Assembly: GCA_015709675.1 (NCBI GenBank)
Contig: CP054182.1
Location: 661,448-725,447, forward strand
From: Ignavibacteriales bacterium
Lineage (GTDB): Bacteria > Bacteroidota > Ignavibacteria > Ignavibacteriales > Ignavibacteriaceae
Direction of reading: 5' to 3'
Length of the DNA stretch: 64,000 nt
Made by a program: the position numbers and the translations under genes
Notes under the pieces: generated by a model
The model's database searches: none
What the model was told of the DNA's origin: nothing
The model's input: the letters and a program-made list of their open reading frames with translations, nothing else
Shown: in pieces, positions 32,423 through 45,352 of the stretch
How the letters are laid out: each line of letters opens with the position of its first letter
Numbering within the stretch: the first letter of the stretch is position 1

Positions 32423-33403
32423 TTACATGAACCGGCGTACTTTTTCGTTATAGAGTGAGATATACTGTTTCTTCAATTCAGCGGGAAGGAAAGATTTTTC
32501 CGTAAGATCTTTCAGATCTTCTGATTTGTGTATATAATCGTTAATAATCGTCTGAACACTATCTTCATGCAGACCGAGCCGCCTTCCCAGTTCTTCAAAA
32601 TCCTCCCGAAGATATTTTGAGCCCGCTTTGTATCCTTCGCTTTCATAACCGTCAGCGAACAGATCAAGCGCGGTATCGGATTCATTAGGCAGATGAAGCC
32701 GGGTGCAGAGAAGGTCGTAAGCCGGCGAAAGCAGATAATCACCGAACTCATCGTTGCGCAAAAGAGAGAAGTTTTTCAAATGAGCATCGCCGTTGCTAAT
32801 CAGATAGTTGAAGAGAACCAGCCGGAAAAACTTTTCCAGCTCGAGCTCCGGAGCCGAGACATATTTCCTGATCAGGTTGCCGATCTCCTCATAACTGCTG
32901 TTGTATTTGAAATCCGGACCGCCTGTTTCGCTGCTCTTCCCGGCAATCTGCGCAAAGTCTTCGACGGGGAGAGGAGTCCCTGTACTGGTCCGGTCAAAGC
33001 GCTTTGTTATATATGCGGGGGAGTTGTCCGAGAGGAGCATGAAAGCATTCGGGGCTGTCTTGAGATCGAACACCTGAGAAGCCGCCTGCATGGTAAGATG
33101 TTCGTTTGCGGCTAATAATTCAGGAAAGAGAAAACTTCCCGAACCTGCGGGTTTGAGTATATATCCTCCTCCGGAGGCGGCAAGCTCAAACCGGTTCTTC
33201 TGCAGGCGCAGCAGATGTTTGATCTGCACGCCGGAAACGGAAATGCGGCTTCCGGACTGCAGTTTTGCTTCCATAAATCCGTTTCTGCTGAAAGGAAGAA
33301 TGTGGCTTACCATCCTCCCGTTAAAAAGAAGTCTTCTGCATGATCGGCAGAAAGAATCAACGCACTCCTTCAGACAACTGTGGCAGCGGTTCTCTCCGGT
33401 CAT
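32423..33403 (-). CDS. hipT: HipT-type serine/threonine kinase toxin (HipA C-terminal domain)
   Basis: 326 residues. The N-terminus carries a zinc-ribbon-like CHSC...CRSC motif (residues 7-22). A Gly-rich-loop SVSGVQ motif follows, matching the S-x-S sites of HipT rather than the single Ser of HipA. The kinase catalytic segment is NGDAHLKNFSLL and the metal-binding DLL follows. The HipA N-subdomain-1 is absent and is encoded separately as hipS, the hallmark of tripartite HipBST. In the E. coli system HipT phosphorylates tryptophanyl-tRNA synthetase; the target here is unproven. The start overlaps hipS by four bases (ATGA). Confidence 0.88.
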   Translation of the reverse strand: MTGENRCHSCLKECVDSFCRSCRRLLFNGRMVSHILPFSRNGFMEAKLQSGSRISVSGVQIKHLLRLQKNRFELAASGGGYILKPAGSGSFLFPELLAANEHLTMQAASQVFDLKTAPNAFMLLSDNSPAYITKRFDRTSTGTPLPVEDFAQIAGKSSETGGPDFKYNSSYEEIGNLIRKYVSAPELELEKFFRLVLFNYLISNGDAHLKNFSLLRNDEFGDYLLSPAYDLLCTRLHLPNESDTALDLFADGYESEGYKAGSKYLREDFEELGRRLGLHEDSVQTIINDYIHKSEDLKDLTEKSFLPAELKKQYISLYNEKVRRFM

Positions 33404-33729
33404 GATATACTTCTCACGGTGACTGCTCCGATAGATTCTTTATACGCTGAGGAAAGAAGAATCGCCAGATAATCTTCCGGATCAATCTTCTGTGTCCGGC
33501 AGAGAATTGCTTTGTTTTCCCCTTCCGGAAGCATGCCAAAAAAGAAAGGAAATAGCTGCGGAGAAGAGAACTCTTCTTTCTGCCGGGGGAGCGAAAGACT
33601 CACCGGCGGAAGATCTCTGCCAGCAAGATAGCTTTCATAATATCTGAAAATATATCCCTCTGCGGTTTTTATCAGCTCACCGGCCGGTATATCTCTTACC
33701 AGCACCTCCGCTTTATATATATTGCTCAT
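33400..33729 (-). CDS. hipS: HipS-like antitoxin (free-standing HipA N-terminal subdomain 1)
   Basis: 109 residues matching only the Couple_hipA / N-subdomain 1 of HipA: AEVLVRDIPAGELIKTAEGYIFRYYESYLAGRDLPPVSLSLP, then FPFFFGMLPEGENKAIL. In characterised HipBST systems this small protein, not HipB, neutralises the kinase. It overlaps hipB by four bases upstream and hipT by four downstream, consistent with strict co-translation and a fixed ratio. Confidence 0.87.
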   Translation of the reverse strand: MSNIYKAEVLVRDIPAGELIKTAEGYIFRYYESYLAGRDLPPVSLSLPRQKEEFSSPQLFPFFFGMLPEGENKAILCRTQKIDPEDYLAILLSSAYKESIGAVTVRSIS

Positions 33730-33929
33730 CTGATGACCGCATGCAGTTTCATGCCGAGCAGATTAAGGATTCTGGTCAGCAGCAGAAAGGAGGGGTTCCC
33801 TTCTGCCGACTCAACGGACTTTAGACTTCTGAGAGAGACCCCGGCCCTGAGAGCAAGTGCCTGCTGCGTTAAGCCGAGGAACTTCCTCCGCCTGACAATG
33901 AGATCGGAAATTTGTTTGTAATCTTCCAT
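33726..33929 (-). CDS. hipB: HipB-like XRE transcriptional regulator
   Basis: 67 residues, essentially one HTH domain (IVRRRKFLGLTQQALALRAGVSLRSLKSVESAEGNPSFLLLTRILNLLGMKL). It is the first gene of the hipBST operon and presumably binds the two flanking AAGTGC/GCACTT operators to repress it. Confidence 0.9.
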   Translation of the reverse strand: MEDYKQISDLIVRRRKFLGLTQQALALRAGVSLRSLKSVESAEGNPSFLLLTRILNLLGMKLHAVIR

Positions 33930-34044: not shown

Positions 34045-34200
34045 TCTGCTCGGCTCCCTCTCGACTCCGCTCGAGGACAACTCGGACACTGGTGGTCCTC
34101 GACTCCGCTCGGACACCGGGTGGTCCCCGAGCCGTTCCCCGAGCGAAGTCGAGGGGAAGTCGAAGGGCGGTCCTCGCTCCGACTTGTCGGAGGAGGGGGG
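34045..34200. repeat. GC-rich palindromic repeat cluster, copy B (left flank of the type I R-M operon)
   Basis: It contains CTCGACTCCGCTCGAGGAC, GGTCCCCGAGCCGTTCCCCG and CTCCGACTTGTCGGAG. Positions 34060-34145 match 45169-45253 in direct orientation with about five substitutions and one inserted base. The open frames across it are compositional artefacts. From 34201 to 34456 no gene is seen; a small TACAG/CTGTA inverted repeat (34406-34421) precedes hsdM. Confidence 0.8.
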
Positions 34201-34456: not shown

Positions 34457-36241
34457 ATGGCACTAAATACTCAATCACTTCAGCCAATAATCAACTTTTT
34501 GTGGACTGTGGCAGATGATGTTCTGGTAAATACTTATCAAAAGGGTAAATACAAAGATGTTATCCTGCCAATGATTGTCATCCGGCGGCTGGATTTACTT
34601 CTGGAGCCCACCAAAGACCGGGTTCTTAAAACATTCTCCGAGTATAAGAAGAAACTGAATAATCTGGACTCCCTGCTCACCAGCAGCAAACATGGTTCCG
34701 GACTGGCTTTTTATAACACCTCACCATTCACACTTAAAAAGCTGATGCAGGACCCCAAAAATCTGCGGTCTAATTTTGAAAACTATCTCAACGGATTTTC
34801 TGATAATGTTCAGGATATTATAAAGCAGTTCAAATTCCGTAATGAAATTGAAACCCTGGATGAAGCTCAGATATTGTTTGCCCTGATTGAAAAATTCTGC
34901 TCTCCGAAAGTTGAACTGCACCCTGATAAACTGCCTCCTTTGGCGATGGGGTATGTGTATGAAGATTTAGTCCGCCGCTTTAATGAAGAAAATAATGAAG
35001 AGGCAGGGGAACACTTCACGCCAAGGGAAATTATTGACTTAATGACCCATCTTGTTTTCATTCCCGTAAAAGATAAAATTAAACAGGGAACCTATCTTGT
35101 TTATGACCCCTGTGTCGGCTCAGGCGGTATGCTCACCATTGCAAAAAAATTTATCCTGAATCCTGAAGGCCCTGTGCAAAGTAATGCAACCGTTCACTTA
35201 TACGGGCAGGAAAGCACGCCCTTTATATACGCAACCTGCAAAAGTGATATGCTCATTAAAGGTGAAGACCCGAACAAGATTGCGTTCGGCAGCACCCTGA
35301 GCGCTTACGGATTTCCTCCAGAGCTAAAATTTGACTTTATGCTAACCAACCCTCCATATGGTAAGACGTGGGCAGCAGACAAAAAAGCCCTTGGGGTAGG
35401 AGAAAAAGGAAAGATCCTTGACAAGCGGTTCATACTTAATAACGGATATAAGAGCGAAGCAGTAACAAGCCGTGTAAACGATGGTCAGCTGATGTTTGTT
35501 CTGCACATGCTCAGCAAAATGAAAAACACAGAACTTGGCAGCCGTATTGCTTCCATTCATAATGGTTCAGCGCTTTTTACCGGTGATGCCGGCCAGGGTG
35601 AGAGCGAAATAAGAAAGCATATTATTTCAAATGACCTGCTTGAAGCCATTATTGCTCTCCCAAATGATATGTTTTATAATACCGGAATTCCAACCTATAT
35701 TTTTCTGATGACCAACCGTAAAGCAGAGCACAGGAGAGGAAAAGTCCAGTTAATAAACGCTACATCAGAAAAGTTTTATACCAAGATGCGCAAGCCGCTT
35801 GGTAAAAAAAGAGTTGAATTTTCTGAAAGCCATATTCCCGTTATTGAAAAAATGTATCTGGAGTTTGAAGAAAATGAATACAGCAAAATATTTGACAATG
35901 ATGACTTTGGCTATACGCAGATAATTGTGAACAGACCAGAGCGGGATGAAAACGGAAATATTCTCTATGCCGCCAAAGGAAAACCCAAAGCAGATATCAA
36001 ACTGAAAGACACAGAGAATATTCCTCTGAAAGAAAATATACAGGAGTTTTTTGAGCGTGAAGTGCTCCCTTTTACCCCCGATGCCTGGTGGGATGAAAAG
36101 GAAAGTAAAATCGGTTACGAAATTAATTTCGCAAAATATTTTTATAAACACCAGCCGCCGCGGCCATTGACTGAAATAGCAAAAGATATTTTAGCCATTG
36201 AGCAGGAAACTGAGGGGCTGCTCAAAGAAATTATTGCGTGA
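34457..36241 (+). CDS. hsdM: Type I restriction-modification system DNA methyltransferase subunit HsdM
   Basis: 594 residues. The N-terminal helical HsdM_N domain (INFLWTVADDVLVNTYQKGKYKDVILPMIVIRRLD) is followed by an N6-adenine methyltransferase core with the SAM-binding DPCVGSGG (about 217-224) and catalytic NPPYG (N298). A long C-terminal extension reaches well beyond 500 residues. It modifies the strand target chosen by HsdS and is required for both methylation and cleavage. The stop overlaps the next start (TGATG). It is the first gene of a six-gene overlapping operon. Confidence 0.95.
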   Translation: MALNTQSLQPIINFLWTVADDVLVNTYQKGKYKDVILPMIVIRRLDLLLEPTKDRVLKTFSEYKKKLNNLDSLLTSSKHGSGLAFYNTSPFTLKKLMQDPKNLRSNFENYLNGFSDNVQDIIKQFKFRNEIETLDEAQILFALIEKFCSPKVELHPDKLPPLAMGYVYEDLVRRFNEENNEEAGEHFTPREIIDLMTHLVFIPVKDKIKQGTYLVYDPCVGSGGMLTIAKKFILNPEGPVQSNATVHLYGQESTPFIYATCKSDMLIKGEDPNKIAFGSTLSAYGFPPELKFDFMLTNPPYGKTWAADKKALGVGEKGKILDKRFILNNGYKSEAVTSRVNDGQLMFVLHMLSKMKNTELGSRIASIHNGSALFTGDAGQGESEIRKHIISNDLLEAIIALPNDMFYNTGIPTYIFLMTNRKAEHRRGKVQLINATSEKFYTKMRKPLGKKRVEFSESHIPVIEKMYLEFEENEYSKIFDNDDFGYTQIIVNRPERDENGNILYAAKGKPKADIKLKDTENIPLKENIQEFFEREVLPFTPDAWWDEKESKIGYEINFAKYFYKHQPPRPLTEIAKDILAIEQETEGLLKEIIA

Positions 36242-38103
36242 TGGAATCAGTCCGAGAACTTTTGGACAAACTAAATCTTAGCGATGAATGTTCAAATACG
36301 GAAGCTAAAAGAGGAACACAGATTGACCGTTCAATTATGGAAACGGTCTGTGCATTTTCCAATGAACCGGGGTTAGGAGGAGGCACCCTTCTGCTTGGTG
36401 TTGATCAGAATGAACTTCCTGCATCTCCCGCTTACCGGGTCTTTGGTGTTGAAAATCCCGACAAACTCCAGCTTGACTTCAGCACAAAATGTGCATCTAT
36501 GTTCAATCACACCGTGCGGCCAGAAATAGCAACAGAAATAATTAATGGCAGGGTTGTGCTGATGATATATATACCCGAGCTTCCGCAGTCCCGGAAACCT
36601 CTTTATTTCAAATCGGAAGGATTACCAAGAGGTGCATTCAGGCGGATTGGCTCAAGTGATCAGCGCTGCACTGATGATGATTTATTTGTTTTTTACAATA
36701 AAGAAGATTCTCTTGACGGAAGTATTATTAAAGATACTGGTTTAGAGGACATCAGCGAAGAAGCCGTTAATCTTTACCGCGGTCTGAGAACCAAAGCAAA
36801 TCCTTATGCAGAAGAACTTCAGTATAATGACACTGATCTTCTTAAGTCACTTGGCTGTATAAAAATGGAACAAGACTCCTGGCGGCTTACCTATGCCGGA
36901 TTGTTGATTTTTGGAAAACGCCAGTCACTCCGGCGACTGCTTCCGATGGTGAGGGTTGATTATATACGGGTGCCGGGTAATGAGTGGATTTCTGATCCTG
37001 AAAACAGATTCACTACCATTGATATGCGCGGCCCGCTTATTGAACTGGTACAAAGAACGTTCAGCGCGATTGCCGATGACCTGCCAAAGGGGTTTCTGCT
37101 GCCTGAGGGTAAAATTCAGGCCGATAGTATCGGTTTACCTTCCCGCGTACTTCGTGAAGCCCTCGTTAACGCATTTATTCACAGAACATATCGCGAAAAT
37201 CAGCCCATTCAGGTTATACGGTATGGAAACCGTCTGGAAATAAAGAACCCTGGTTTTTCACTTAAACCTGAGGAACAGCTTGGTGAACCGGGCTCACGAA
37301 ACCGGAATCCTTTTATTGCCGCCATTTTTCATGACACAAATCTTGCTGAGACCAAGGGCAGCGGCATCAGAACAATGCGGAACCTGATGGAGCAGGCAGC
37401 TCTTATGCCGCCAACTTTTGAAAGCGACCATAGCAACAATCTGTTTACTGCCCGGCTGCTATTGCACCACTTCCTGAATGAAGATGATGTAAAATGGCTG
37501 GCAAAGATTAATCATTATAATCTTGGAGATAACCAAAAAAGAGCATTAATTTTTGTAAAAGAGGTCGGGGCCATTGATAATGCCGCTTACCGACAGCTCA
37601 ACGGAATGGATACTCTGCACGCGAGTGCTGATTTGAGGGGGCTAAGAGACAAAGACATTCTTCTTCAGAAAGGAAAAGGACGCAACACCTACTATACCCC
37701 AAGTCGGGTTTTCCCATTTTGGACGGATACCCCGGCTGATGCTGAAACTGCACCGGTTCAGGACCCTAATGCACCAGTGGAAGACCTTAGTGCACCAGTT
37801 GAAGACCTTAGTGCACCAGTTAACACGAGCTTAGTGCACCAGCTTCCCCCTGCCCTTAAGTCAGCGGTGGAAAAGTTACCTTTGCGAATTGCAGATCCGG
37901 CAGTGCTGGAAGCCGTAGTTCTGGAATTATGTGCTTGGAGGACATTGAAATCCTCAGAATTAAGCGGGATATTGGGAAGAAGTGAAAAATATTTGTTAAG
38001 AAATTTCCTCACCCCTCTGCGGGAGTCCGGCAAACTTGCGTATGGTTTTCCGGAAATGCCCAACCACCCGCAGCAGGCATATAAAACGGTAATTAATGAA
38101 TAA
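36241..38103 (+). CDS. AlbA_2 (Schlafen-like) DNA-binding domain / HATPase_c_4 protein inside the type I R-M operon
   Basis: 620 residues from ATG 36241 (a GTG one codon upstream is possible). The N-terminal AlbA_2 domain is seen as NTEAKRG, CAFSNEPGLGGGTLLLGV and LPRGAFRRIGSSDQRCTDDDL. It is followed by a RecG-like/HATPase_c_4 region (PSRVLREALVNAFIHRTY, NRLEIKNPGF, ETKGSGIRTM). A 21-bp tandem repeat (37753-37830) encodes an APVEDLS-rich linker ahead of a C-terminal winged-helix-like part. Such proteins commonly sit between hsdM and hsdS, with no settled role. Overlaps on both sides (1 and 8 bp) tie it to the operon. Confidence 0.87.
   Translation: MESVRELLDKLNLSDECSNTEAKRGTQIDRSIMETVCAFSNEPGLGGGTLLLGVDQNELPASPAYRVFGVENPDKLQLDFSTKCASMFNHTVRPEIATEIINGRVVLMIYIPELPQSRKPLYFKSEGLPRGAFRRIGSSDQRCTDDDLFVFYNKEDSLDGSIIKDTGLEDISEEAVNLYRGLRTKANPYAEELQYNDTDLLKSLGCIKMEQDSWRLTYAGLLIFGKRQSLRRLLPMVRVDYIRVPGNEWISDPENRFTTIDMRGPLIELVQRTFSAIADDLPKGFLLPEGKIQADSIGLPSRVLREALVNAFIHRTYRENQPIQVIRYGNRLEIKNPGFSLKPEEQLGEPGSRNRNPFIAAIFHDTNLAETKGSGIRTMRNLMEQAALMPPTFESDHSNNLFTARLLLHHFLNEDDVKWLAKINHYNLGDNQKRALIFVKEVGAIDNAAYRQLNGMDTLHASADLRGLRDKDILLQKGKGRNTYYTPSRVFPFWTDTPADAETAPVQDPNAPVEDLSAPVEDLSAPVNTSLVHQLPPALKSAVEKLPLRIADPAVLEAVVLELCAWRTLKSSELSGILGRSEKYLLRNFLTPLRESGKLAYGFPEMPNHPQQAYKTVINE
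37753..37830 (+). repeat. In-frame 21-bp tandem repeat in the AlbA_2 gene
   Basis: About three copies of GCACCAGTGGAAGACCTTAGT encode repeated APVEDLS. The copy number could vary by slippage without breaking frame. Confidence 0.7.
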
Positions 38104-39349
38104 AATGACAACCGCCGAAGAAACCAATAAAACCGCATGGCTGGGTGAGTTCCCTCCTCACTGGCAGGTGCTCCGTATTAAAAACCTGTTCCGGGAAATT
38201 GATAACCGGAGCGAATCAGGCGCAGAAGAACTGCTCTCCGTTTCCCATTACACCGGAGTTACCTTAAAGCGTGAAAGTCTTGAAAACGAAGACGACCATT
38301 TAACCAATGCAGAAAGTCTTGAGGGTTATAAACTGGTTGAGCCAGGGGACCTTGTTGTGAACATTATGCTTGCATGGAACGGCAGTATGGGTATATCACC
38401 ATACAAAGGCATCACTAGTCCGGCATATTGTGTTTACCGTATAAGGGAGGGCAACAACCCTGAATATTTTGGTTACTTGTTTACAACAGCTTTATTTAAA
38501 GCTGAATTTCGCAGAAACAGCACAGGCATTATTGACAGCCGGCTTCGTTTATACTCTGATAAATTCTTCAGTATTTTTACTGTTGTGCCCCCAAAAGAAG
38601 AACAGGACAAAATAGTTGAATTCATTAAAGCTAAAGAAGAAAAGATAAACCTGTTCATCGAAAAGAAGAAGCGGTTAATTGAGCTGCTGAAGGAGCAGAG
38701 GCAGCGAGTTATTGATGAATTATTGAAAATTAACGCAGAGACAATAAGATTAAAATTTTGTGTCACAAAAGTAGGTAGTGGAATCACTCCAAGAGGAGGT
38801 GCAGAGGTTTATCAGGATGAGGGTGTGATTTTCCTTCGAAGTCAAAACATACATAATGAAGGACTTCGATTAGAGAGCGTTTCTTTCATATCTGAAGAAA
38901 TAAACGCTGACATGGAAAACTCGCAAGTAAGATTCAATGATGTTTTAATAAATCTTACAGGAGCTTCAATAGGAAGATGCCAAATTTATAACTTTGATGC
39001 ACCGGCAAATGTCAACCAACATGTTTGCATTATTCGGCCGATCCCGGATGTTATTAATTCTGAATTTTTAATGCTTCAAATTCAATCCGATAGGATTCAG
39101 ACCTTAATAAACACCGTTGAAGGGGCGTCAAGAGAGGGATTAACTATTGATGAGATAAAGAACTTTGTTCTATTTATACCCCCAATAGACGAACAAAAAA
39201 TAATAATATCACTAATAAAAAACGAAACCACCTCCATTGATATTACCATAGCAAAAGCCGAACGGGAAATAGAACTTGTTCGGGAGTACAAAGAAGCAAT
39301 GATAGTAGAAGCGGTGATGGGGAAAGGGAAAGAAATAAAATGGACATAA
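38096..39349 (+). CDS. hsdS: Type I restriction system specificity subunit HsdS
   Basis: 417 residues with the usual two-fold layout. Target-recognition domain 1 (starting WLGEFPPHWQVLRIKNLF) ends in the first conserved coiled-coil segment PPKEEQDKIVEFIKAKEEKINLFIEKKKRLIELLKEQRQRVIDELL (about 163-210). Then come TRD2 (VGSGITPRGGAEVYQDEGVIFLRSQNI) and a second helix IPPIDEQKIIISLIKNETTSIDI. It sets the bipartite DNA target. TRD2 is clearly more AT-rich than TRD1 and its codon use matches the following SIR2 gene, suggesting that half was replaced. It overlaps neighbours by 8 and 10 bp. Confidence 0.95.
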   Translation: MNKMTTAEETNKTAWLGEFPPHWQVLRIKNLFREIDNRSESGAEELLSVSHYTGVTLKRESLENEDDHLTNAESLEGYKLVEPGDLVVNIMLAWNGSMGISPYKGITSPAYCVYRIREGNNPEYFGYLFTTALFKAEFRRNSTGIIDSRLRLYSDKFFSIFTVVPPKEEQDKIVEFIKAKEEKINLFIEKKKRLIELLKEQRQRVIDELLKINAETIRLKFCVTKVGSGITPRGGAEVYQDEGVIFLRSQNIHNEGLRLESVSFISEEINADMENSQVRFNDVLINLTGASIGRCQIYNFDAPANVNQHVCIIRPIPDVINSEFLMLQIQSDRIQTLINTVEGASREGLTIDEIKNFVLFIPPIDEQKIIISLIKNETTSIDITIAKAEREIELVREYKEAMIVEAVMGKGKEIKWT

Positions 39350-40374
39350 CTCTTTCAGAACTATTTCCCAATTCAAACATGGGGCTTAGTCAAATTGGTT
39401 TCTTTTTTGGTGCGGGCTCATCTTTTGCTGCTGGGTATCCTCTTACTTCTAAATTGACGACCCATGTCTTAAAGAAACTATCTTCGCCAGAAATTGAATT
39501 AATTGAAAAGATTTTAAAGAAGAAGGGACAAATACTCGATGTTGAGAAAGGAGAGCCCGATATTGAAATTCTCTCTGATTTTATCAATCGTGCAAGTACA
39601 ACTGGAGGATACAAAGATATTGATTCACTGACCGATTCGATTAGAAAGTATATTGTAGATGTAATAAATGAAGTAGCAGCTCCTAATCTTGAGTATCATA
39701 TCAAATTCCTAAAAGGTTTAAAAAGTCGCTTGCAGAATAGGAATGAACCCATTTGGATATTCACAACCAACTATGATTTATGCTTTGAAATGGCAGCGGC
39801 AAAAGCACATATTCCTGTACACAATGGTTTTGAAGGAATTGCAAATAGATATTTTGACATCGAAAGATTAGATCTGAAATATGGAAAAGTCGATTATCAT
39901 ACAAGGAAATTTGAACCTTTTAAAGAACCGCATATTATACTTGTGAAACTTCACGGTTCTATTTCATGGTTCAAAGATGATGTAAACACTTTCGAATCCT
40001 TTTTAAGTGAAAATGCACCAAATAGATGCATGATTCTTCCCAGACGAACTAAAGTCATAGAAACACTTGAAGCGCCATACGACAAATTATTCCGATACGC
40101 TTCATCTATAATTGGAAATCAATGCAAGTTTATTGTATCCTGTGGATATAGTTACCGTGATGAGCATATTAATGATATTTTGTTTGTTCCCAAACTAAAC
40201 AATAGATCTCTTAGACTCTTTGCTTTGTCAAAAGATGAAACTCCCGAAATGTCAAATTTGAAAGAACATCCAAGTTTTCATTACCTGGTTAACGATAAAG
40301 TTTATTACAACAAGAATGAACAAAGCGCAAGTTTTAATCTCTGGGATTTTAAAAAGTTTGCAGACTTATTTTAA
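39340..40374 (+). CDS. SIR2-family NADase-like protein of a SIR2-HerA module
   Basis: 344 residues with the SIR2 fold motifs FFFGAGSSFAAGYP (24-34), IFTTNYD (Asn144), KLHGS (His205) and CGYSYRDEHIN. Asn and His are the catalytic pair used for NAD+ hydrolysis in defence sirtuins. In characterised SIR2-HerA systems this subunit assembles with a HerA hexamer and depletes NAD+ during phage infection; by family I infer the same here. It starts ten bases inside hsdS and ends 18 bp before the HerA gene. It is AT-rich and contains no TATATA, unlike flanking genes. Confidence 0.88.
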   Translation: MDITLSELFPNSNMGLSQIGFFFGAGSSFAAGYPLTSKLTTHVLKKLSSPEIELIEKILKKKGQILDVEKGEPDIEILSDFINRASTTGGYKDIDSLTDSIRKYIVDVINEVAAPNLEYHIKFLKGLKSRLQNRNEPIWIFTTNYDLCFEMAAAKAHIPVHNGFEGIANRYFDIERLDLKYGKVDYHTRKFEPFKEPHIILVKLHGSISWFKDDVNTFESFLSENAPNRCMILPRRTKVIETLEAPYDKLFRYASSIIGNQCKFIVSCGYSYRDEHINDILFVPKLNNRSLRLFALSKDETPEMSNLKEHPSFHYLVNDKVYYNKNEQSASFNLWDFKKFADLF

Positions 40375-40392
40375 CTAATCAGATAGGAAAAA

Positions 40393-42114
40393 ATGATGGA
40401 TTACAAAATTGGAAAAGTATTATCGGTATCAGGAGAGGAAATAAATATTTCACTCTTTGATTATTCTTCTACTGGAGAAGTCATTTATGGTGTCCAAGAG
40501 AATATGAGTGTAACTATAAATACACATGAGGGTCCGATTCCGGTTTTAGTTGGTCAGCCTGGTACTTTTGTACTGATTGCAATTCCAAATGGAAAGCTGT
40601 TGGCAATGATTTCAGATATCTCTATGAGAGATACACCTGTTTCCAGCGGTGAGATAAAGAAACTCCAAATTACAGATCAATACATAATAAGTAGTTCAAT
40701 TAGAATTTTATCAGTAATTCCGGTTGGAACAATTGATGCTTCTGGAAATTTCGAGAGAGGAACCGATATTTTACCGACAGTAAACAATGACGTCTTTGCT
40801 GTTTTACCGAATGTTATTGACAGAATTTATGAATCGTTTGCTGAAGGAAATTTTTCAATCGGGGAACTTTCCTTAATTAGGGATCAAGAGGCAAAAATTA
40901 ATTTTGATGCTTTTCTATCACGACATGCTGCGATTTTAGGGCAAACGGGTGGCGGAAAATCCTGGACAGTAGCTTCACTGCTGCAAAACATTTCACGATT
41001 CCCTAAATCAACGGTTGTTCTTTTTGATTTACATGGGGAATACAAACAAAGCGTTGATGGCACAAGTGTATTTGGCGATGATGCTGAATACATCAATGCG
41101 GGTGATTTGGAGTTCCCTTACTGGCTTATGAAAAGCGATGAACTTCTAGGTTTGATGGTTGATAGAACTGAGGCGGCAGCACCTAATCAAATTGCAAAAT
41201 TTAAGGAACTATTACAAGCTGCTAAAGTAAGTCATTCAGAGAATCAATCATTAGGTATTCCCAAAATTACTATAGATACACCTGTGTATTTCAATTTCGA
41301 TTCTATTATTACCGAGTTTCGTCGACTTGATGTTGAAATGGTACAAGGCTCTACAAAACTAGTTAAAGGTCCATTAAATGGTGATTTCACAAGACTTTTA
41401 ATGCGAATTGATTCAAGATTAAACGACAAACGTTATGATTTAATCTTCAATCCAACAACATACAACAGTTCCGCATCAATGGAAGAATTATTTCGAAAGA
41501 TATTAGGTGAGGAATCTAATCCCAAAAAATTAGTAATTGTTGACATGAGTGCGATTCCATTCGATGTTCGCAATTCCGTTATTTCTCTTTTGTTACGCTG
41601 CCTTTTTGATTTCTCCTATTGGTATAAAAAGGTGAACTCGACATCATATCCTATTTCTGTATTTTGTGATGAAGCACATATTTACTTCAACGAGAAAGAC
41701 CTTAATTCGGAGGCGGCAAGATTATCAGCCGAAAGAATTGCAAAAGAAGGACGCAAGTATGGAATAAGTTTAACCGTAATCAGTCAAAGACCACGAGAGG
41801 TTTCTGCAACTATTTTATCGCAATGTAACTCATTTCTTTGTTTAAGAATTTCTAATCCCGAAGACCAGTCATACGTTAAAAGTTTGTTGCCAGATTCAAT
41901 ACGAGGAATAGTAAGTATGTTTTCCAATCTCAGGCGTGGTGAGTGTATTTTGCTTGGTGATTCTGTCATGATGCCAACAAGGATTAAAATTCGCAGACCA
42001 GAACCTGCACCAAATAGTGCAGATACTTCATTCTATAAAGAATGGAATAAACCACATGAAGAAATCCAGTTTGCACCAGTTCTGGACGCTTGGCGTAAAC
42101 AGCAAGTAAGTTAA
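40393..42114 (+). CDS. herA: HerA-like DNA translocase ATPase (DUF87/HAS-barrel) of a SIR2-HerA module
   Basis: 573 residues. An N-terminal HAS-barrel (about 1-110) precedes a FtsK-HerA type ATPase with Walker A GQTGGGKS (about 183-190), DLHGEY, Walker B VFCDEAH (Asp426/Glu427) and the arginine-finger region SQRPREVSATILSQCNSF. It forms hexamers. In SIR2-HerA defence it is the structural and ATPase partner of the sirtuin. The stop overlaps the hsdR start by one base (TAATG), so it is translated within the restriction operon. Like the SIR2 gene it is AT-rich and lacks TATATA. Confidence 0.9.
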   Translation: MMDYKIGKVLSVSGEEINISLFDYSSTGEVIYGVQENMSVTINTHEGPIPVLVGQPGTFVLIAIPNGKLLAMISDISMRDTPVSSGEIKKLQITDQYIISSSIRILSVIPVGTIDASGNFERGTDILPTVNNDVFAVLPNVIDRIYESFAEGNFSIGELSLIRDQEAKINFDAFLSRHAAILGQTGGGKSWTVASLLQNISRFPKSTVVLFDLHGEYKQSVDGTSVFGDDAEYINAGDLEFPYWLMKSDELLGLMVDRTEAAAPNQIAKFKELLQAAKVSHSENQSLGIPKITIDTPVYFNFDSIITEFRRLDVEMVQGSTKLVKGPLNGDFTRLLMRIDSRLNDKRYDLIFNPTTYNSSASMEELFRKILGEESNPKKLVIVDMSAIPFDVRNSVISLLLRCLFDFSYWYKKVNSTSYPISVFCDEAHIYFNEKDLNSEAARLSAERIAKEGRKYGISLTVISQRPREVSATILSQCNSFLCLRISNPEDQSYVKSLLPDSIRGIVSMFSNLRRGECILLGDSVMMPTRIKIRRPEPAPNSADTSFYKEWNKPHEEIQFAPVLDAWRKQQVS

Positions 42115-45100
42115 TGACAACCGACACCTCAGAAAAGGGATTTGAAGCGCACATCACGCAGCACCTGTGTCTGGTGAATGCTTTTGAGGAGAGGCATTTC
42201 AGCCAGTATAACCGGGCGGAGTGTGCGGATGAGGATCTGCTTTTCCGGTTTCTTGAGAGCACGCAGGAAAAAGAGATTGCCAAACTAAAGACGGTTCACG
42301 GAAGTAATTTCAGGAGCAAACTGCTTTACCGTATTAACAGCCAGATAAAAACTTTCGGCATTATTGAGGTATTGCGAAAAGGCATTACCGACAACAATGT
42401 AAAGCTGAAACTGTTTTATGATAAGCCCGTCTCCTCTCTGAATGAAAAGGATGTGGCACTTTATAACAAAAATATTTTTTCTGTTACCCGTCAGGTGCAT
42501 TACAGCATGCAGAATGAAAACAGTCTTGATATGGTTGTTTTCATTAACGGGCTTCCAATTATAACATTTGAACTGAAAAATGAGCTGACCAAGCAGACCG
42601 TTAAAGATGCCATAAAGCAATATAAAACCAACCGTGACAGCCGTGAGGAGCTCTTCCGCCTTGGCAGGTGCATGGTTCATTTTGCCGTTGATACCGAACA
42701 GGTTTGGATGACAACGCATCTGCGCAACGGCAGCACCCAGTTTCTTCCTTTTAATAGGGGCTATAACAACGGGGCTGGTAACCCTCCAAGCCCGGAGGGA
42801 ATTAAGACAGATTATCTCTGGAGGGAAGTTCTTACCAAAGATTCCCTAACCAACATAATTTTTAATTATGTTCAGTTGTTCGAAGATGATACCGAAAGAA
42901 TATTGCCTGATGGCACGGTTAAAAAAGAGAAGGTAAAAAAACTTATATTTCCCCGTTATCATCAGTTAAGCGCGGTAACATCGCTCCTGCAGGATGCAAA
43001 GCAAAATGGTCCCGGACGCCGGTACCTGATTCAGCACTCTGCCGGCTCAGGCAAAAGTAATTCCATAAGCTGGCTGGCTCATCAGTTAGTGGGGCTCTTT
43101 GACCATACAAACACCACAGCGGTATTTGATTCTGTAATTGTTGTTACCGACCGGAAAGTGCTTGATGCCCAGATACGGAGAAACATCAAAAATTTTGAAC
43201 AGGTGCGCGGAGTTGTGGAAGCAATTACCGAAGGGTCTAAACAGTTAAAAACCGCGCTTGAAGAGGGAAAGAAAATAATCATAACTACCATTCAAAAGTT
43301 TCCCTACATCGTAAACGAGATTGGAGAACTCCCCGGCAGTAAATTTGCTATCATCATAGACGAAGCCCACAGCAGCCAGAGCGGCAACATGGGGGGCAAG
43401 CTGAATGAAACTTTGGCACAGGATTTTGAAAAAGTGCGGGTTGACGGTAATGAATATATATTTGTTGATAAAGACCAGTATGATGAGTTAACATCCGAAG
43501 ACCTGGTGGCGGATATTGTAAGGGGAAGAAAAATGCTCCCCAATGCAAGTTACTTTGCATTCACTGCAACACCAAAGAATAAAACCCTTGAGCTCTTCGG
43601 TGAAAAATTCATGGACGGCGATAAAGAAAAATTCCGGGCATTTCATCTTTATTCGATGAAACAGGCGATTGAAGAAGGATTTATCCGTAATGTTCTGGAA
43701 AATTATACTACCTATCAGAGTTTTTACAGTCTGCACAAACGGATTCAGGACGATCCCCTGTTTGATAAGGTTAAAGCCCGGAAAAAACTGCGCGTCTATG
43801 TAGAGAGCCATCATCTTTCCATTCAAAAAAAGACCGCGATTATTATTGAGCATTTTATGAATGCGGTTATTAAACAGAAAAAGATCAACGGACTTGCAAA
43901 AGCCATGCTGGTCACAAGCAGCAGGAAGAATGCCGTAAAGTATAAACGGGCATTTGATTCTTATCTTTCGTCTGCAGGCATTCCATTTAAAGCAATCGTT
44001 GCGTTTTCTGGTGAAATGGAAGGCGAATCCGAATCATCCCTAAACGGATTTTCCAGTTCTGCAATAGCCGATGAGTTCAAAAAATCTGAATACCGTTTTC
44101 TGATCGCGGCAAATAAATTCCAGACCGGTTTTGATCAGCCCCTGCTTCACACCATGTATGTTGATAAGAAACTCGGCGGTGTTAATGCCGTGCAGACCCT
44201 TTCCCGGCTCAATAGAACTCTGGCTGGTAAAACAGATACCTTTGTGATGGACTTTGCCAATAAAGCAGATGACATAAAAAAATCATTTGAACCCTTTTAC
44301 GAAACCACCATATTAGGTGAGGCAACCGACCCGAATAAACTGTTTGATCTGCAGTCTGCTCTTGATGCGTTTCAGGTATATACCCGGGAACAGGTTGAGG
44401 ATTTTTCGCAGAGGCTTATCACAGATACGCCTGTTGACCAATTGCACAGCATTCTTGACTCAGCCGCTGCAGTTTTCAGAACCGAACTTAATGAGGAACA
44501 GAGGGAGGATTTCAGGGTTAAATGCAAATCGTATGTCAGGTTATATGTTTTTCTTGCGCAGATAGTACCTTTTGTTAACACCTATCTGGAAAGATTATAT
44601 CTCTTCTTAAATCATCTTCAGAATAAACTTGGGCGCCGGCAGGAAGTAGATCTGGCTCAGGGAATACTGGACAGTATTGATATTGAAAGTCTCCGTTATC
44701 AGTTAGAAGGCACTTCCGATATTCCGCTTGAACAGGGGAAGGAACTGAAACCCATACCAGGTGAAATGGGAGGCGGTTTAACTGAACCGCAAATGGATTA
44801 TCTTTCAAATATCGTAAAAGAATTTAACGAACACTTTGGCACCACATTCACCAACGAAGACAAAGTAAGAAAGATGACTGAAGATTTAATGCAGGATGTG
44901 GCTAATGATGATGAATTTGTAAGTGCATTCAGGCATTCTGATATGCAAAATGCCAGAATTACCTTTGAAGAGGTACTTTCAAGAAAACTTACCGACCACA
45001 TTGAAAACAACTTTGAGGTTTATAAAGAGTTTCAGGACAACAAAGAGTTCCGTGATTTCTTTACCGGAACCATGTTTCAGATAATGCAGAGAGATTTTAG

Positions 45101-45122
45101 GAAACTAACAGCTAATCAGTAG
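42114..45122 (+). CDS. hsdR: Type I restriction endonuclease subunit HsdR
   Basis: 1002 residues. The N-terminal nuclease domain has the D...E-x-K pattern (DMVVFINGLPIITFELKN, about 140-156). It is followed by SF2 translocase motifs: Walker A AGSGKSN (about 308-315), IIDEAHSSQSG (about 413), TATPKN, and later TGFDQPLLHTMYVDK with QTLSRLNRT. A helical C-terminal domain docks on HsdM/HsdS. With HsdM and HsdS it translocates and cuts unmodified DNA. It is separated from hsdM and hsdS by the AlbA_2, SIR2 and HerA genes but translationally coupled to them. The downstream flank is repeat cluster C. Confidence 0.96.
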   Translation: MTTDTSEKGFEAHITQHLCLVNAFEERHFSQYNRAECADEDLLFRFLESTQEKEIAKLKTVHGSNFRSKLLYRINSQIKTFGIIEVLRKGITDNNVKLKLFYDKPVSSLNEKDVALYNKNIFSVTRQVHYSMQNENSLDMVVFINGLPIITFELKNELTKQTVKDAIKQYKTNRDSREELFRLGRCMVHFAVDTEQVWMTTHLRNGSTQFLPFNRGYNNGAGNPPSPEGIKTDYLWREVLTKDSLTNIIFNYVQLFEDDTERILPDGTVKKEKVKKLIFPRYHQLSAVTSLLQDAKQNGPGRRYLIQHSAGSGKSNSISWLAHQLVGLFDHTNTTAVFDSVIVVTDRKVLDAQIRRNIKNFEQVRGVVEAITEGSKQLKTALEEGKKIIITTIQKFPYIVNEIGELPGSKFAIIIDEAHSSQSGNMGGKLNETLAQDFEKVRVDGNEYIFVDKDQYDELTSEDLVADIVRGRKMLPNASYFAFTATPKNKTLELFGEKFMDGDKEKFRAFHLYSMKQAIEEGFIRNVLENYTTYQSFYSLHKRIQDDPLFDKVKARKKLRVYVESHHLSIQKKTAIIIEHFMNAVIKQKKINGLAKAMLVTSSRKNAVKYKRAFDSYLSSAGIPFKAIVAFSGEMEGESESSLNGFSSSAIADEFKKSEYRFLIAANKFQTGFDQPLLHTMYVDKKLGGVNAVQTLSRLNRTLAGKTDTFVMDFANKADDIKKSFEPFYETTILGEATDPNKLFDLQSALDAFQVYTREQVEDFSQRLITDTPVDQLHSILDSAAAVFRTELNEEQREDFRVKCKSYVRLYVFLAQIVPFVNTYLERLYLFLNHLQNKLGRRQEVDLAQGILDSIDIESLRYQLEGTSDIPLEQGKELKPIPGEMGGGLTEPQMDYLSNIVKEFNEHFGTTFTNEDKVRKMTEDLMQDVANDDEFVSAFRHSDMQNARITFEEVLSRKLTDHIENNFEVYKEFQDNKEFRDFFTGTMFQIMQRDFRKLTANQ

Positions 45123-45352
45123 GACAGCTCGGACACCGGATAGTGTCGAGGGCGGTCCCTGAGCGGTCCTCGACTCCGCTTGAGGACAACTCGGACGCCG
45201 GTGGTCCTCGGCTACGCTCGGACACCGGTGGTCCCCGAGCCGTTCCCCGAGCGGTCCTCGACTACGCTCGGACACCGGTTGGTCCCCGAGCCGTTCCCCG
45301 AGCTGTCCTCGACTACGCTCGGACACCGCTGGTCCCCGAGCGGAGCCGAGGG
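45121..45352. repeat. GC-rich palindromic repeat cluster, copy C (right flank of the type I R-M operon)
   Basis: A tandem set of units of the form GCTCGGACACCGGTGGTCCC then CGAGCCGTTCCCCGAGC, in three to four copies starting at the hsdR stop codon. Positions 45169-45253 are a direct copy of 34060-34145. The open frames here are artefacts of the repeat. Simple repeats (CATACTTCATAATTCATAC) follow before fumC. Confidence 0.82.

Follow-up and report, generated by a model that had tools for sequence, protein, structure and literature searches.

A SIR2-HerA pair inside a type I operon

The window analysed here, a stretch of 64,000 nucleotides from an Ignavibacteriales bacterium (contig CP054182.1, positions 661,448 to 725,447), contains a type I restriction-modification (R-M) operon of six genes in which an adjacent SIR2-HerA pair sits between hsdS and hsdR (Table 1). 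The reading that we favour, and consider probable, is that of a type I R-M operon carrying a self-contained SIR2-HerA (Nezha-type) NADase module as co-expressed cargo behind hsdS. Comparison with other type I operons suggests that the slot behind hsdS is a common docking place for many defence systems and not the seat of a special partnership, and the simplest account of the loci compared would be that SIR2-HerA entered this cargo slot several times.

A first-pass annotation had already assigned the identities of the six genes, their common strand, their joints and the nesting of one system in the other, all of which is borne out by the open reading frame coordinates and by Pfam and PADLOC domains. 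The chassis has the complement by which a type I R-M system is recognized: HsdM, an HsdS with two target-recognition halves and an HsdR with HSDR_N and a SWI2/SNF2 motor, all in one operon. It likewise has the marks of an embedded defence, that is, another defence system between hsd genes, on the same strand and with tight joints. When first possible start codons are taken, the genes from hsdM to SIR2 overlap by 4, 8 and 10 bp in turn, SIR2 and HerA are 18 bp apart, and HerA overlaps hsdR by 1 bp, the last base of the HerA stop codon TAA being the first base of the hsdR ATG. Co-expression is likely because of these tight joints, and we infer a single transcript with coupled translation across the six genes.

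The pair fits the PADLOC subfamily models PDLC04081 (388 bits over residues 1-344 of SIR2) and PDLC04105 (552 bits for HerA), and SIR2 scores 42.7 bits to Pfam SIR2_2 against a cut-off of 24.5; the best PADLOC scores of HsdS and HsdR are 278 and 144.5 bits. None of the six proteins reaches an NCBIfam cut-off, and the AlbA_2 protein is without any NCBIfam match, so that the operon proteins appear to be divergent family members. HsdR scores 215.7 of 284.55 bits to TIGR00348 and HsdM 89.1 of 242.75 bits to TIGR00497, with Pfam cut-offs reached, and SIR2 and HerA score 114.9 of 500 and 347.3 of 850 bits to the equivalogs NF042942 and NF042944. By these scores the two proteins are related to those equivalogs without being the same equivalogs. 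Among relatives of known structure are chains labelled SIR2 family or SIR2-like for SIR2 (8yhx, 8w9l, 8j4u), chains labelled HerA for HerA, and 2kyy and 3lmm for the AlbA_2/HATPase protein.

As in other SIR2-HerA systems, the catalytic Asn and His of SIR2 are present and a DUF87 ATPase adjoins it. All 60 aligned SIR2s have N144 and H205, and all 60 HerAs have the Walker A lysine (K189), whether or not the pair is nested. The Walker A and B residues K189, S190, D426 and E427 are all present in the window HerA, position 426 being D or E across the family. The available text on the Vibrio cholerae system reports that mutating the two matching SIR2 residues abolishes immunity, and that other members of the family form a 12:6 complex, deplete NAD+ upon infection and protect against phage (PMC11559045); in our reading of the motif, N144 and H205 would be the counterparts of the mutated residues. 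No anticodon-nuclease family (PrrC/RloC) is among the Pfam and PADLOC matches listed for the six operon proteins.

The base composition of SIR2 and HerA differs from that of hsdM and hsdR, for which reason the two genes look inserted. The G+C content at third codon positions (GC3) is 0.27 in both, compared with 0.37 in hsdS, 0.41 in the AlbA_2 gene, 0.42 in hsdM, 0.45 in hsdR and 0.505 (standard deviation, sd, 0.057) in 30 other genes of the window. Codon-usage distances run in the same direction (SIR2 0.167, HerA 0.182, hsdS 0.130, hsdM 0.074, hsdR 0.058; at most 0.105 in the 20 other genes that served as the comparison set). At all five other loci with type I genes, described below, hsdS, SIR2 and HerA have a lower GC3 than hsdM.

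Direct repeats bracket the operon, which suggests that operon and cargo could be transferred or lost together. The genome has three exact copies of the 23-base core of the repeat, every one of them at one or other end of the operon; 14 further sites elsewhere carry one or two mismatches. When the two flanking genes were located in five relatives in search of an empty site, they proved to be on separate contigs or widely spaced, and the same-genus genome is without a close fumC match. The result of a promoter/terminator scan (30 versus 25.9, sd 4.4, and 18 versus 11.8, sd 4.2) was not used.

Relatives of the pair and their surroundings

Neither 164 genomes of the order nor samples from the class (391 genomes) and the phylum (395), sets that overlap, yielded a close relative of the window SIR2; the SIR2 profile scores its own copy at 388 bits and reaches at most about 120 bits elsewhere. 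A single-protein SIR2 scan of a genome contig collection returned one distant locus (L002, 28%), and single-protein scans of a viral contig collection gave no match to the window SIR2 or the window HerA. The host genome, one contig of 4.21 Mb, has a single match to the window HerA. In the phylum sample the highest-scoring HerAs, at about 40% and up to 403 bits, do not have SIR2 as a partner, the best SIR2-linked HerA scoring 316 bits.

We surveyed 61 SIR2 or HerA loci, excluding weaker SIR2 matches, and kept the 57 with an intact adjacent pair (L148, L182, L197 and L201, lacking one, were dropped). Type I genes accompany the pair at five of the 57, and at three of the 27 that have at least 4 kb on both flanks; hsd genes were detected with iterated profiles of our own, by which divergent subunits may be missed. 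SIR2-HerA lies downstream of hsdS in all five, directly so in four. The first-pass annotation had raised the question of whether relatives share the six-gene order. With AlbA_2, the exact order was seen only here, and the order hsdM-x-hsdS-SIR2-HerA-hsdR recurs in L076; the remaining four (L156, L160, L191, L194) combine the pair with type I genes in different orders. Because L156 and L160 continue with hsdM as their next hsd gene, the slot is to be described as behind hsdS, not as before hsdR.

Within the stretch available, 51 of the 57 pairs are without an hsd match that exceeds 50 bits. One further pair, L169, has a weak 62-bit hsdM-like match in a long protein and was not counted as type I; nor was L201, where a partial methylase is joined to SIR2 at a contig end. 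At L148 a type I operon stands beside a broken SIR2-HerA pair.

Outside the phylum, none of 17 plasmid loci with HerA relatives, which are top matches and not a random sample, lies inside a type I operon. Some lack a SIR2 partner, L254 having DUF4297 instead. Other genes of methylase or restriction-like type stand nearby on the same strand in three of them (L089, L090, L247), and the L090 run (Table 1) may perhaps represent embedding in another R-M-like cluster. The Escherichia coli pair, L093, turned up in one of 5426 E. coli genomes. At five of the 17 plasmid loci (L093, L248, L249, L250, L253) HerA is followed by a small gene with a KTSC domain, and a Natrinema plasmid locus has ADP-ribosylglycohydrolase genes besides its KTSC-domain gene.

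As a control, 20 loci (L052-L071) of HerA relatives without a SIR2 partner were examined, and none has an hsd match above 50 bits; at L052, HerA itself could not be recovered. The other 19 come from other genomes of the class, with several copies per genome, and encode a HerA about 40% identical to that of the window, with no hsd genes within the stretch. A SpoIIE-phosphatase-like protein of roughly 410 residues lies nearby at nine of these 19 loci (by Pfam for L054 only), and three have a protein of 717-725 residues, the L054 copy of which ends in a Pycsar-cyclase-like domain. It is possible that this HerA context is an undescribed HerA module.

The slot behind hsdS

To place these cases in a wider frame we took a census of 40 hsdR loci of the phylum, hand-picked from the upper part of a score-ranked listing and thus not random. 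Nine have no hsdS in the run and were excluded. In the remaining 31 type I operons the hsdS-hsdR slot is occupied by one to five genes of at least 90 residues in 24 and is empty in seven; for the hsdM-hsdS slot the count is 4 with cargo out of 24. The gap between the last cargo gene and hsdR is 21 bp or less, overlaps included, in 19 of the 24 operons whose hsdS-hsdR slot is occupied (first possible starts). The overlap of HerA and hsdR, for which the first-pass annotation had proposed a check of conservation, is therefore rejected as a special signature, such tight joints being common in cargo-carrying type I operons.

Cargo was scanned in 21 of the 24 operons (L216, L242 and L243 were left out); 40 of the 53 hsdS-hsdR cargo proteins of at least 140 residues were scanned by Pfam and seven of the 40 also by PADLOC. 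The systems found are listed in Table 1. Because many different defence systems occupy the same slot, it is not specific to SIR2-HerA. Close to the window hsdR the picture varies: among its relatives, hsdS stands directly before hsdR in L081, L082, L084 and L086, DUF433-PIN genes lie between the two in L079 and L080, and a SoFic-like gene does so in L083; in L077 (AAA_21 and RloB-like) and L078 (Fic) the cargo directly precedes hsdR, with no hsdS in view.

The same genome holds two further type I operons with an occupied slot. In one (L204) the occupant is a TIR-STAND-like protein, which may be another NAD-acting effector in this position. In the other (L205) it is a small protein without a Pfam or PADLOC match, and an ORF6N protein lies between hsdM and hsdS.

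Table 1. The operon and its borders, other SIR2-HerA loci with R-M genes, and genes in the hsdS-hsdR slot; positions refer to the locus named in each row.
Feature	Locus	Position	Strand	Remarks
hsdM, N6-adenine methyltransferase subunit	Window	34457..36241	+	Pfam HsdM_N, N6_Mtase; PADLOC MTase_I 776 bits
Schlafen AlbA_2 + HATPase_c_4 (RecG C-terminal-like) accessory gene	Window	36238..38103	+	hsdM-hsdS slot; Pfam HATPase_c_4/SLFN_AlbA_2; GTG start
hsdS, specificity subunit	Window	38096..39349	+	Pfam Methylase_S (second half); PADLOC Specificity_I profiles over 14-207 and 215-410
SIR2 NADase subunit (predicted)	Window	39340..40374	+	Pfam SIR2_2; PADLOC PDLC04081
HerA translocase subunit	Window	40393..42114	+	Pfam DUF87; PADLOC PDLC04105
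hsdR, restriction/translocation subunit	Window	42114..45122	+	Pfam HSDR_N, SWI2_SNF2, T1R_D3-like
Upstream direct-repeat copy	Window	34060..34145	+	93% over 86 bp to 45169-45253; GC-rich
Downstream array of the same direct repeat	Window	45169..45345	+	GC-rich; brackets operon
Helix-turn-helix, HipA N-terminal and HipA C-terminal genes	Window	32423-33929	-	Just upstream of operon
hsdM-RhuM-hsdS-SIR2-HerA-hsdR	L076			Distant genome of phylum
hsdR-x-hsdS-SIR2-HerA-RhuM-hsdM	L156
hsdS-SIR2-HerA-hsdM	L160			Contig ends in hsdS
hsdM-hsdS-x-SIR2-HerA	L191			Contig ends in HerA
hsdM-x-hsdS-SIR2-HerA, then hsdR	L194			hsdR 5.4 kb on, after 1.1-kb gap; looser case
SIR2-HerA in same-strand run with RapA-like helicase, methyltransferase and type III res-like gene	L090	4741-16914		Planctomycetes plasmid
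TIR + STAND-like 850-residue protein	L204	10308-12860		hsdS-hsdR slot, another type I operon of same genome
151-residue protein	L205	5471-5926		hsdS-hsdR slot, third type I operon of same genome
SIR2-pAgo-like single protein	L217	4503-7691		hsdS-hsdR slot, same phylum; PADLOC pAgo 1392 bits
Hachiman	L209			hsdS-hsdR slot
GmrSD	L211, L212, L225, L228			hsdS-hsdR slot
McrBC	L237			hsdS-hsdR slot
Retron III-A	L229			hsdS-hsdR slot
OLD-like	L220			hsdS-hsdR slot
Fic	L211, L219			hsdS-hsdR slot
Zeta toxin	L215			hsdS-hsdR slot
IetS-like + AAA protein	L212			hsdS-hsdR slot
PDC-M11A	L235, L238			hsdS-hsdR slot; L238 by same Pfam pair
Cargo without clear defence role	L207, L208, L221, L222, L224, L226, L239, L240			One protein scanned in L226 and L240

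Exchange between cargo and chassis

In a tree of 59 pairs and the window (L191, its HerA cut by the contig end, was left out), nested pairs stand in four places: the window, L076, L156 with L160, and L194. The tree neighbours of L076 include plasmid pairs outside type I operons (L091, L090, L092); L203 is too short to tell. In pairwise identity, L191 and L194 are 71% alike in hsdM, 29% in SIR2 and 26% in HerA; L191 and L156 are 55% alike in SIR2 and 69% in HerA, with hsdM at 33%; and L156 and L160 are alike throughout (hsdM 75%, SIR2 77%, HerA 88%). Judged from these sequences, cargo and chassis have been exchanged. Such exchange between unrelated chassis argues against a specific dependence of SIR2-HerA on R-M.

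How the embedded pair may act

If the pair is indeed co-expressed cargo, all six genes would be read from one promoter upstream of hsdM, with the methylase and specificity subunits made first, the cargo next and HsdR last. HsdRMS would cut unmodified phage DNA, and the SIR2-HerA complex would independently sense infection by its own route, deplete NAD+ and stop phages that get past restriction. What the slot offers would then be co-transfer and co-expression, with no molecular handshake. The first-pass annotation had named a two-tier system as one possibility and simple co-inheritance as another. The weak form of the two-tier idea, two co-expressed defences acting separately, fits this scheme; in the strong form a failure of restriction, or ends produced by HsdR, would trigger SIR2-HerA, and the exchange of cargo tells against such a specific dependence.

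Several observations weigh against this reading. Of the five type I cases in the survey, L160 and L191 are truncated where their contigs end, and L194 is a loose arrangement. All three of the close relatives L156, L160 and L191, whose HerAs are 67-88% alike, have type I genes, with two hsdM lineages among them, and this clustering could reflect a lasting association. Composition alone cannot date the insertion, since the GC3 of hsdS is also low. Finally, according to the available text, the TgvAB pair embedded in a V. cholerae type I operon is on its own 10-100 fold less protective against several phages than the five-gene cluster (PMC11411939), and by analogy some interplay of an embedded pair and its R-M system is possible.

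An alternative, which we regard as unlikely, is a guard system in which the R-M complex restrains or triggers SIR2-HerA; phage anti-restriction proteins or DNA ends made by HsdR would switch on NAD+ loss. It would suit this reading that HerA translocates DNA and that HsdR generates DNA ends. The precedent is PrrC, which is embedded in the type I operon EcoprrI and controlled by its enzyme, as far as the available texts describe it (PMC3874165, PMC12707154). The acquisition of SIR2-HerA by type I operons in at least four places of the tree, its place immediately after hsdS in all but one of the five other cases, the fact that the pair stands in line at five of the six survey loci with clear type I genes (at L148 it is beside the operon and broken), and the consistent company of the L156, L160 and L191 pairs are all in its favour. 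However, most pairs have no hsd match in view (both flanks reach 4 kb in only 27 of the 57), the conserved residues of nested pairs are the same as in other pairs, cargo and chassis have been exchanged, and many unrelated systems use the same slot. L258, with 45% HerA identity to the L156 clade, also lies outside a type I operon. It is conceivable that L156, L160 and L191 make up a SIR2-HerA clade specialised for R-M; no further member of that clade was found in the class of G223 (one of 244 genomes, G223 itself), and no hsd gene follows downstream on the viral contigs L256 and L257, whose upstream side is cut. If the guard link were true, type I enzymes would be sensors for abortive immunity well beyond PrrC.

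A broader proposal, in our view quite improbable, is that abortive effectors generally dock at the 3' end of hsdS, with the type I complex as sensor or brake, and that SIR2-HerA was captured repeatedly because HerA reads the action or inhibition of HsdR. If so, type I operons would be modular immune receptors with exchangeable effectors (SIR2-HerA, TIR-STAND, SIR2-pAgo, retron, Hachiman). It is very doubtful that the two systems are accidental neighbours, brought together by ordinary defence-island insertion with neither an expression advantage nor selection for place: the strong composition difference of SIR2-HerA, the lack of a close SIR2 in relatives and the mobility suggested by the repeats around the whole operon would suit such an event, but not the overlaps at both ends of the pair, its recurrence in unrelated type I operons, or an occupancy of the hsdS-hsdR slot well above that of the hsdM-hsdS slot.

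Co-expressed cargo behind hsdS thus appears the more attractive scenario. What began as one unusual operon leads to a rule that can be put to the test, namely that in this phylum most sampled type I operons have other genes immediately behind hsdS. Many are defence systems, with probable NAD-depleting effectors among them, which makes the slot a place to look for defence genes not yet described. With the window itself, a single construct would allow restriction to be separated from abortive NAD+ loss.

Comparison with known systems

The window pair resembles SIR2-HerA (Nezha; GAO_19) in having two adjacent genes, a SIR2_2 protein with conserved Asn and His and a HerA ATPase, with PDLC04081 and PDLC04105 fitting; it differs in lying inside a type I operon. 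In Streptococcus thermophilus the pair is found between or downstream of R-M systems (PMC11514479), and in V. cholerae in a 25-kb island (PMC11559045), according to the available texts of both studies. Among the titles and abstract openings covered, which did not include the Payne et al. 2024 preprint, we found no SIR2-HerA inside a type I operon; that preprint, as cited in other papers, shares the general idea of defence genes inside other defence operons.

That defence genes are embedded in type I operons is already established by PrrC, TgvAB and DarTG2, as the accessible portions of their reports describe them. TgvAB, in a type I operon of VPI-2 in V. cholerae, is likewise a two-gene defence and acts independently of HsdR activity (PMC11411939), but it is a type IV restriction pair and not an NADase. 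DarTG2 occupies the same slot, between hsdS and hsdR, and its authors regard the site as a potential recombination hotspot, with another gene pair there in four genomes; unlike SIR2-HerA, it is a toxin-antitoxin system, and its island carries the repressor RptR (PMC12255303). PrrC is an abortive effector embedded in a type IC operon, as SIR2-HerA would be in a type I operon here, but it is an anticodon nuclease silenced by the R-M enzyme (PMC3874165, PMC12707154).

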